Origin: Candidatus Gastranaerophilales bacterium
Lineage (GTDB): Bacteria > Cyanobacteriota > Vampirovibrionia > Gastranaerophilales > Gastranaerophilaceae
NCBI GenBank assembly: GCA_944325095.1
Contig: CALUYV010000012.1
Span: 1 to 39,696, forward strand
Length of the DNA stretch: 39,696 nt
Direction: 5' to 3'
Of the stretch, positions 15,682 through 17,767 are shown piece after piece (within the stretch, counting starts at the first letter, position 1; the number at the start of each line of letters is the position of its first letter). The position numbers and the translations under genes are program-made. Under the pieces are notes generated by a model. That model did not search any database, was not told the origin of the DNA, and worked only from the letters and a program-made list of their open reading frames with translations.

Positions 15682-17052
15682 TTATTTATTCAGCCCGAAA
15701 CTTTGAAAAGTCCGGCTTTTTGGAATAAAACCGCTGCCGGTGAAAGAAGTTGTATTTTGTTCAGTCTTTTGCACAGGCTGCTGGTGTTTATATCTGTAAT
15801 TTGTCCATATTCTCGATATTGCACTCAAGGTAAATCCCATTGCAACAAGGCTGAATAAGAACGGAACACCGGTTATAACAGATTTTTGCTTAATAAGTTT
15901 TGATAATTCTTCATTTATTGTTGATTTATTTTTAACCGCCAATTCTTCCGCTATTTTAGGCAAATCTTTGCGGGATGGGATATTCGCAATGCTTCCGTCT
16001 GAATTTTTCTTTATTAAATCAGGGAATTTACCGTTTTTAGCAAGATATTTCTTAAATCCGGCATCTAAAACAGAAGAACCGAATATAGTATAAAGAACAA
16101 CAAGCGGAACCCTTGTCCAGACTTCAAGAAAATCGAGCCTGCCTCTATCTTTTGCGGCACTTGAATATCCGAATAAACCGGTTGTACATGTAACTGCCAG
16201 CATACCTTTGCTCAGTGCAAATTTTCCGTTATTATTTACAAAATCGAGTTTTAAATAATCTTTTAAAAATGTATCCAGTTTTTTAGATTTAACATTTGCT
16301 AATTTAGAAATATATGCCCCCGGCTCAAGCAAAATTTCGGAAAATTTAAGTGCCGCTTTAGATTTGTGTCCGAATGCAGCAAGTCCGAGTCCGCCGAGAA
16401 TGCCGGCAGCCGAAAGCAGACCCGTTTTTAAAAGTACATTTTTTGAATGTGTTTCAACTCTTTTTTGCTGCTCCAAATCAACAGTTTTTTCTTTATTCAA
16501 ATTGGCAACATTATTAAAATCACTTATTTTAAAAACTTTGAGAGTAAATAAGTTTTTTGCAAAACCAAGCCCGTATTCAAGTGCCGGAACTGTAATACAA
16601 CCCAGAAGTATTCCGCCTTTTGCTGCTATGGTTCTATTTTTCAGCACTTTGTCGAGATTTGAATTTTTAATTTCCTCTACACTATTTGCAAGATTTTTTA
16701 CAACAGCATCTTTAAATTTTTTAGGTTGAACAGTTTTAAATAATTTATTGCGAAACAGGTGTTCTCCTAAAAACGGAGCCGCAAAATAAAATATCCCCGA
16801 CTCAATAAATTCAAGAAAAGTAAATTCTGAAAAATCTACAAAACTCCGTGATAATACTGCCTTTGGAAACCAGTTGGTAAGAGTTCCCTGAATAAATCTT
16901 GTATGTGATAAATTTTCCTGCGATTTAAGAAATTTATCCAGATATTTTGTACTTTTGCTAAATTCGCTGTTTATACCGCCGAATGAGGTTTGCTGCTGTT
17001 TTTGTTTAAAATATTCATTAGTTATATTTGTATTTGCTATACCTGTTATCAT
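15682..17052 (-). CDS. Unrecognised multi-pass membrane protein with TSFGG motif
   Basis: A 456-residue protein I cannot place in a known family. A Gln/Asn-rich N-terminal 20 residues without signal peptide leads to TSFGG (22-26), then an alternation of hydrophobic stretches (about residues 80-100, a GGILLGCITVPALEYGLGFA helix near 145-170, a GLLSAAGILGGLGLAAFG helix near 210-230, YSSAAK and VPLVVLYTIFGSSV regions, and VPFLFSLVAMGFTLSAI near the C terminus) with basic loops. The C terminus again carries TSFTGSGF and QSFG. At least five membrane helices are likely. AAGGAAAAAGC precedes the ATG. It is separated from the upstream small gene by a terminator. Probably lineage-specific. Confidence 0.7.
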   Translation of the reverse strand: MITGIANTNITNEYFKQKQQQTSFGGINSEFSKSTKYLDKFLKSQENLSHTRFIQGTLTNWFPKAVLSRSFVDFSEFTFLEFIESGIFYFAAPFLGEHLFRNKLFKTVQPKKFKDAVVKNLANSVEEIKNSNLDKVLKNRTIAAKGGILLGCITVPALEYGLGFAKNLFTLKVFKISDFNNVANLNKEKTVDLEQQKRVETHSKNVLLKTGLLSAAGILGGLGLAAFGHKSKAALKFSEILLEPGAYISKLANVKSKKLDTFLKDYLKLDFVNNNGKFALSKGMLAVTCTTGLFGYSSAAKDRGRLDFLEVWTRVPLVVLYTIFGSSVLDAGFKKYLAKNGKFPDLIKKNSDGSIANIPSRKDLPKIAEELAVKNKSTINEELSKLIKQKSVITGVPFLFSLVAMGFTLSAISRIWTNYRYKHQQPVQKTEQNTTSFTGSGFIPKSRTFQSFGLNK

Positions 17053-17087
17053 GCTTTTTCCTTTTCCAAATTGAAATAATACTAAAA

Positions 17088-17111
17088 AAGACCACCTGAA
17101 TAGGTGGTCTT
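17088..17111 (-). terminator. Intrinsic terminator of the Met-rich small gene
   Basis: Ten-base perfect stem (17088-17097 with 17102-17111, core GACCACCT/AGGTGGTC) with a 4-base loop. The T-run follows only on the minus strand, so it ends transcription coming from 17136-17222. Confidence 0.88.
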
Positions 17112-17135
17112 AAGAACTTTTTGCTTATTTAATGA

Positions 17136-17222
17136 TTAACGCATTCGTCCATAACAATGACCACCTTTAATAAGGCTTTGCATCATCATCATTTGCATCA
17201 TCATTGTCATAGTTTTTTGCAT
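17136..17222 (-). CDS. 28-residue methionine-rich small ORF
   Basis: A 28-codon frame with ten methionines, including a run of four near residues 11-14 (TMMMQMMMMQ), followed by SLIKGGHCYGRMR. The Met cluster plus a His-Cys pair could bind soft metals such as Cu(I), or the run could form a short amphipathic helix; neither is shown. AAAGGAAA lies about ten bases before the ATG, a TTGACA promoter lies at 17258-17286, and a perfect terminator follows at 17088-17111. The unit is therefore a self-contained gene of under 200 nt. Alternatively the transcript is a small RNA and the frame is incidental. Confidence 0.5.
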   Translation of the reverse strand: MQKTMTMMMQMMMMQSLIKGGHCYGRMR

Positions 17223-17257
17223 CAAAAATTTTTCCTTTTTTGTTTACTATAGGACTT

Positions 17258-17286
17258 ATGCTACTATAACATTTTCCTCTTGTCAA
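17258..17286 (-). promoter_or_regulatory. Sigma70-type promoter of the Met-rich small gene
   Basis: On the minus strand a perfect TTGACA (17281-17286), a 17-base spacer and TAGCAT (17258-17263, four of six matches). It lies just downstream of the DUF2513-like gene and points at the 17136-17222 frame. Confidence 0.6.
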
Positions 17287-17304: not shown

Positions 17305-17601
17305 CTATGAATTAAGCAGAACTTCTACCATTTTAAAACCCTTGGAAGTCAATCTGTAACCGGTATCCACAATACTGTAATTTCCGTCAACCGAATTTAC
17401 AAACCCGAAAGGGAATTTTGAATATATAGATTCAATCAAACCTTCGTCGCCTAAAATAAGAATATGTCCCATAAATTTACGTTCCATTTCCTTACCCTTA
17501 ACATTAAGCAGCGACATCAGCGTATGCGAATTGATTAAGTAGTCATCATACTTAACCATTGTTATCAAAATTTCTTTTACAAATGCTGAATCTAATCTCA
17601 T
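17305..17601 (-). CDS. DUF2513-like winged-helix small protein
   Basis: A 98-residue protein with the DUF2513-like layout: N-terminal MRLDSAFVKEILITM, then a central HILILGDEGLIES resembling the H..lL.eaGLi segment, and a C-terminal YRLTSKGFKMVEVL like the LT..G.eFL helix. Such proteins look like small winged-helix domains, common on mobile elements, with no known function. The ATG at 17601 is preferred over one at 17643, which lies in or upstream of a TTGCAT-17-TATTAT promoter; no good Shine-Dalgarno precedes it. No other phage gene is near. Confidence 0.55.
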   Translation of the reverse strand: MRLDSAFVKEILITMVKYDDYLINSHTLMSLLNVKGKEMERKFMGHILILGDEGLIESIYSKFPFGFVNSVDGNYSIVDTGYRLTSKGFKMVEVLLNS

Positions 17602-17767
17602 CTTCAAAACTTTATGTCTGCCATATATAATATAACACTTCAATATATTTTATGCAAGCACGCTTAAAATTTTTATCGTGAAATAACACTTACTTTTATT
17701 AAATTTTGTAAAAATTTTACTTAATAACTAGCAAAATAATCCATTTAGATGAGTTAAAATCATGTCA

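Follow-up and report, generated by a model that had tools for sequence, protein, structure and literature searches.

Is a 28-codon gene with ten methionine codons, its own promoter and its own terminator a small-protein gene, or does it serve the gene that lies behind it? The question is raised by a minus-strand locus in the window (the whole stretch of 39,696 nt that was analysed, from a Candidatus Gastranaerophilales bacterium), which an earlier sequence-only reading had taken for a self-contained gene of a Met-rich, possibly copper(I)-binding peptide. Every signal listed in that reading (promoter, Shine-Dalgarno, a frame of 28 codons of which ten are Met, and a terminator with a 10-bp stem) is present at 17286–17084 (−) (Table 1), and the unit is more than a chance arrangement: the RNA from 17255 to 17070 folds at −45 kcal/mol (z −4.1), a value reached by none of 200 shuffles, 25 of 46 congeneric genomes contain the unit, and its TTGACA is kept in 26 of 27 aligned loci, where the start signals are mostly kept as well. 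The view that this is a translated-looking short frame with signals of its own, of the type that gene callers overlook, was therefore sound. The frame translates as MQKTMTMMMQMMMMQSLIKGGHCYGRMR followed by a stop, that is, 28 residues with ten Met and one His-Cys.

Two features had nevertheless been missed. The ATG of a gene for a 456-aa protein sits about 30 nt past the U run of the terminator, and the sequence AGGTGGTC occurs twice, once inside the leader frame and once in the terminator, with both copies able to pair with GACCACCT. As argued below from comparison of related loci, the tiny Met-rich gene is most likely a sensor rather than a protein gene in its own right, and the locus is very probably a ribosome-mediated transcription attenuator of the trp/his type with methionine as its control codon.

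Table 1. Positions of the leader elements and of the gene behind them, numbered along the window
Feature	Position	Strand	Basis
Leader promoter: TTGACA (17286–17281), 17-nt spacer, TAGCAT (17263–17258)	17258–17286	−	Read from sequence
AGGA, Shine-Dalgarno-like	Just upstream of ATG 17222	−	Sequence
Leader ORF, 28 codons: ATG 17222, stop 17138–17136	17136–17222	−	Sequence
Putative control codons: ATG at codons 1, 5, 7–9 and 11–14, all but one of the ten	17181–17222	−	Sequence and relatives
Region 1 (ACTATGACAATGA)	17201–17213	−	Partner ~17160–17149 in the ribosome-free fold of this sequence only
Region 2 (AGGTGGTC), in Lys-Gly-Gly-His codons (AAA-GGT-GGT-CAT); putative antiterminator 5′ arm	17159–17166	−	Pairing tests
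Region 3 (GACCACCT), terminator 5′ arm, common to terminator and putative antiterminator	17102–17109	−	Pairing tests
Region 4 (AGGTGGTC), within terminator 3′ arm	17090–17097	−	Sequence
Intrinsic terminator: 10-bp stem AAGACCACCT-ATTC-AGGTGGTCTT (17111–17088), U run to 17084	17084–17111	−
Putatively controlled gene; its 456-aa product matches no known family	15682–17052	−	ORF, profile searches, predicted structure

With both strands considered, the gene past the 456-codon gene is in convergent orientation, and the gene upstream of the leader (17305–17643, −) ends 18 nt before TTGACA. The latter encodes 112 aa with no Pfam match and was present in the fetched flank at 10 of the 30 genus loci L001–L030.

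The leader frame is matched to its own terminator

Among the 46 genomes of the genus, the controlled gene was found in 24, each time with the leader immediately ahead of it. One further leader, the 25th (G035), is at a contig end, and at the sensitivity used no gene or leader was detected in the other 21 genomes; weak BLAST matches in genus genomes (L026–L030) were without the downstream gene. The proposal of a self-contained gene is thus not supported, since the controlled gene follows in 24 of 24 cases and frame and terminator pair with each other. We examined this pairing in 27 loci, comprising 25 from the genus and two from named contigs. When every frame was paired with its own terminator arm, the duplex energies summed to −475.5 kcal/mol, versus −393 kcal/mol (sd 10.9) for shuffled partners, and none of 20,000 shuffles was as low as the real sum. 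Moreover, RNAalifold, unprompted, placed the pairing of regions 2 and 3 (2:3) in the consensus fold, and in five of the twelve pairs of that duplex both partners had changed (pair variants include UA 13, CG 8, UG 5; AU 23, GC 2; GC 26, AU 1). Frame, terminator 5′ arm and terminator 3′ arm are altered together in L023, L020 and L046, and in L021 the terminator loop, too, matches the frame. At the level of sequence, such three-way covariation is the signature of a putative antiterminator that would compete with the terminator.

Own partners were likewise preferred beyond the genus and in a second type of leader, with Trp codons, described further below: shuffling gave pairing as good in none of 10,000 trials each for the 22 Met loci of the genus, for 43 Met loci mostly from other genera and for 39 Trp loci. 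These sets omit five of 109 loci, two Met and three Trp, for which our script found no terminator (L115, L125, L074, L075 and L245); a terminator is visible nonetheless in L115 and L125, and lies beyond the stretch analysed in L074 and L075. In ten class-level loci, picked by eye for visible Met, Trp or Ile runs, own pairing also beat shuffled partners (1 of 10,000 as low); two of these ten, L215 and L217, pair with their own terminator no better than with those of other loci.

The last control codon starts a median of 16 nt before region 2 in 61 Met loci and 14 nt in 37 Trp loci, figures that omit duplexes less stable than −10 kcal/mol and any locus in which no terminator had been located. 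In E. coli trpL, about 17 nt separate the last control codon from the antiterminator arm, and, from established ribosome dimensions, a ribosome waiting at the last control codon would just leave region 2 free.

The letters behind region 2 are kept as well. Positions 17147–17140 read CGAATGCG, and the same place in relatives mostly reads CGAATGTG. Conservation persists even where the reading frame through these letters differs (L129, L114), so this stretch seems constrained as RNA.

Predicted working of the leader and alternatives to it

The attenuator features that could be tested in sequence were all found at this locus, namely a leader ORF with a repeated codon, an intrinsic terminator, an antiterminator that shares an arm with it, and the spacing of the control codons. 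We infer that the leader senses the supply of Met-tRNA, as follows. A ribosome would follow RNA polymerase while the leader is transcribed and, with Met-tRNA plentiful, would pass the ATG codons and cover region 2, whereupon the terminator (3:4) would form and the downstream gene would be off. With the ribosome absent, hairpin 1:2 would hold region 2, and the terminator would form here too. When charged Met-tRNA is scarce, the ribosome would stall on the ATG run and region 2 would be left free; 2:3 would then form before region 4 is made, no terminator would arise and the 456-aa protein would be produced.

RNA folding is consistent with these states. In the ribosome-free fold of the leader RNA, region 2 is tied to region 1 and the terminator is free, hairpin 1:2 being present in the fold of this one sequence. 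With a ribosome on Met14 and region 4 absent, 2:3 reaches −18.8 kcal/mol, versus −15.3 kcal/mol for the terminator hairpin alone. After region 4 has been made, 2:3 and the terminator are nearly equal in stability, and the order in which the regions are transcribed would then be expected to count. From the folds with and without a ribosome, read-through is thus predicted when Met codons are decoded slowly, and termination when they are decoded fast or the leader is not translated. Counted against an attenuator are the conserved CGAATG stretch after region 2 and L104, a more distant family member with no visible Met leader; in addition, some other regulator able to release region 2 might conceivably make use of the three-way match.

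A ligand such as free Met, a metal or a drug might instead arrest the ribosome on this particular nascent chain, in the manner of TnaC, with the stall setting the antiterminator. The same RNA anatomy would be expected of such a system, and translation of the leader is needed either way. However, the run of identical codons is kept, whereas around the Met or Trp codons there is no conservation across genera, a pattern more readily explained by tRNA sensing than by an arrest peptide of defined sequence, and we consider peptide-specific arrest unlikely. Still further down the scale of probability, to the point of being barely credible, is a non-coding regulatory RNA or riboswitch in which the frame would be incidental. 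The strong fold (z −4.1) would suit it, but the frame is open in 27 of 27 loci while the linker from stop codon to terminator is anywhere from 14 to 22 nt long and occurs in each of the three phases, start signals are mostly kept, and the Met or Trp codons agree with the clade of the protein. A frame broken in relatives that keep promoter and terminator, which the sequence-only reading had named as a sign of such an RNA, was not seen among the aligned loci. As to riboswitches, no Rfam family other than a tRNA reached its gathering score in the window, and the T-box and S-box covariance models were unmatched.

Whether the 28-residue peptide might itself be the product of a unit with promoter and terminator of its own, for instance a small protein that binds copper(I) or acts on membranes, was judged from its conservation. 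A complete transcription unit, an open frame, ten Met and one His-Cys all speak for such a protein. Nonetheless, His is replaced by Arg, Ile or Phe and Cys by Phe in members of the genus, His-Cys is absent or displaced in many Met leaders from other genera, and no conserved Cys/His/Met pattern of copper(I) ligands was found in the genus loci and the Met leaders of other genera, so the proposal of copper binding loses its footing. Behind the Met run, 93 close pairs of loci showed 412 nonsynonymous versus 142 synonymous codon differences, with second positions varying most, as fits a leader whose product does not matter. Between genera, the sequence diverges widely and Met content alone is kept, paralogues have Trp-Trp in its place, and the frame co-varies with the terminator. 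The peptide itself is thus probably not important, and a role for it as the product is very unlikely.

Leader codons agree with the clade of the controlled protein

Five second copies in the genus, 37–43% identical, have a Trp-Trp leader (for example MRNTNVKTQSWWCLLNKTGLLCWR) and the same type of frame-terminator pairing. In the wider set, Trp-Trp leaders mark the other, paralogous clade, and those of the Met clade are Met-rich with very different sequences, such as MSMAMMMGMQMMMCMPTLTCRM and MINKEQQMMMNMMMQMQGLESGSHYLLRM; Met codons are enriched in all Met-clade relatives displayed except L104. A short upstream ORF with at least two MM pairs occurred in 65 of 114 real regions versus 10 of 2,280 dinucleotide shuffles, and one with two MM pairs or WW in 107 of the 114 family genes versus 25 of 2,280 shuffled regions. 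The seven exceptions are L104 (leader not seen), L110, L111 and L114 (Met-rich, with fewer MM), L129 (Ile), and L148 and L149 (single Trp). WW was found in none of 68 Met-clade members and two MM in none of 42 Trp-labelled members. When placed on a tree of 122 proteins, which include some loci fetched twice (L022/L082, L007/L086), the leader labels required five changes, the minimum for six labels, compared to a mean of 45.4 for shuffled labels.

Class-level relatives outside the order also carry such runs, of Met in L202, L207, L208 and L212 and of Trp in L211, L215 and L217. A clade of distant homologues of ~350 aa from the same bacterial family (eight loci: L157–L161, L167, L171 and L076) has no leader of the Met or Trp type. 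The leader of L129 (G056:C33) is rich in Ile and Leu (MITSLNIAIISLIIISLLDSKRLLYCECEI), and its frame pairs with its own terminator at −20 kcal/mol; it is possible that this Ile leader represents a third specificity of the controlled family.

What the controlled protein may do

The 456-aa protein has about five hydrophobic segments of moderate strength and is predicted to be nearly all-helical (pLDDT 66 in a first model and 84.5 with 83 sequences). Its family had no match in Pfam, NCBIfam (at curated cut-offs, transporter families included) or PDB sequences, and Foldseek and VIA searches with both models yielded no convincing fold, the best Foldseek E being 0.19 and the best VIA match being an ABC exporter (Z 5.8 with rmsd 8.6 across 200 residues), a level without meaning for helical proteins; absence of a match here says nothing for a new fold. 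We take this orphan family to be probably a membrane protein. An attenuator specific for one amino acid, placed ahead of one gene, suggests that the gene serves import of this amino acid, and the family may take up its cognate amino acid, Met here and Trp in the paralogue clade, a proposal to which we give about an even chance, and the L129-type member would possibly take up Ile.

The alternative that the attenuator works as described but the family is not a transporter, and instead spares or recycles the amino acid or acts as a starvation-induced stress protein, is a serious one, although we rate it somewhat below even. Consistent with it, no known transporter family or clear fold was found, but paralogues that each have their own single-amino-acid leader (Met, Trp and one Ile) suit substrate-specific uptake better. 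Moreover, as indirect support for uptake, genomes with trpB less often have the Trp-type gene, its presence judged by score and number of matches (27 of 109 genomes with trpB versus 84 of 179 without; Fisher p 1.8e-4), an association also seen at genus level (rho −0.42, p 0.006) and weaker, not significant, within genera (Mantel-Haenszel OR 0.36, p 0.12). No link with trpB was found for the Met-type gene (Fisher p 0.33).

For methionine itself, metE (PF01717) and metH (PF02965) each scored over the cut-off in none of the 288 genomes of the family, in searches that were positive in 10 and 7, respectively, of 14 control genomes. This absence, too, is indirect support for uptake; methionine may have to be obtained from outside, or a different synthase may make it. 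With 22 of the 46 genus genomes lacking a detected gene and neither metE nor metH found in any searched genome of the bacterial family, the controlled protein cannot be the sole source of Met. Counted against the transport reading, Vampirovibrio is reported in the text available from PMC4451040 to make Met and Trp, and neither Met nor Trp is named among the amino acids listed as beyond the synthetic capacity of gut Melainabacteria in the accessible part of PMC3787301.

Comparison with known leaders

Leader-peptide attenuators of trp, his, leu, thr and phe genes are known in proteobacteria. Some proteobacterial ones are named in the accessible text of a comparative study (PMC1262725), according to which trp attenuators of Actinobacteria have double or triple UGG and which, for methionine, names S-box riboswitches. 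Like these proteobacterial and actinobacterial attenuators, the locus described here has a short ORF with a run of one codon, a terminator, a mutually exclusive antiterminator and the expected spacing to region 2. Unlike them, its putative control codon is Met, region 2 often lies inside the ORF, and the hosts are non-photosynthetic relatives of Cyanobacteria; where the known systems govern a biosynthetic operon, a synthetase or a known permease, here one orphan gene, probably for a membrane protein, would be under control. SAM (S-box) riboswitches and Met-specific T-boxes likewise control methionine genes by premature termination, but the S-box senses SAM and the T-box senses tRNA directly and without a leader peptide, whereas the present locus has a leader peptide and no Rfam match. 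The TnaC leader depends on a defined nascent peptide. As with the TnaC and bmrCD leaders, whose targets include transporter genes, translation of the leader would here control downstream transcription; those leaders, however, need a defined nascent peptide or a drug, whereas here codon identity is conserved. The bmrCD leader peptide is described as drug-responsive in the text available from PMC4191407.

In a literature search, with most subscription papers outside it, we recognised no methionine-codon attenuator and no leader peptides of Gastranaerophilales. The control codon, the host class and the uncharacterised protein family behind an apparent trp/his-type attenuator would thus be new. 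It could go either way whether, taken together, the loci represent an undescribed transporter family in the non-photosynthetic sister class of Cyanobacteria, with its substrates (Met, Trp and at least one Ile) written in attenuator codons and with the first Met-sensing leader-peptide attenuators among them. Leader peptides name the amino acid that is relevant to the gene behind them, and so offer a concrete substrate prediction for an unannotated family in gut bacteria that are for the most part uncultured and about whose nutrition little is known. Classical attenuation would thereby extend to methionine and to another bacterial class, with the same arrangement kept between orders.

Occurrence in the family and other methionine leaders

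The protein profile matched in 153 of the 288 genomes of the bacterial family, and a broader profile in 182 of 382 genomes of the class. The strict pattern ATGATGATG-N3-ATGATGATG occurred at 46 sites in the 288 genomes, 31 of which lie, by coordinates, just ahead of members of the controlled family. The remainder comprised one Met leader near a contig end (G049) and 14 other things (G117:C1:386457 by coordinates only), with no second type of Met-controlled gene found by this pattern among the 288 genomes. At the contig end in G049 (L286, G049:C57), two Met-rich leaders stand in tandem, with a terminator after the first and the end of the contig after the second, which is perhaps a case of double attenuation. 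Finally, two members of a single genus share an MMM-x-MMM frame at an equivalent site (L264 in G090 and L265 in G053), 73–163 nt ahead of a thrS-like gene that we take to encode threonyl-tRNA synthetase; this frame is possibly only the reverse of a His-rich stretch.
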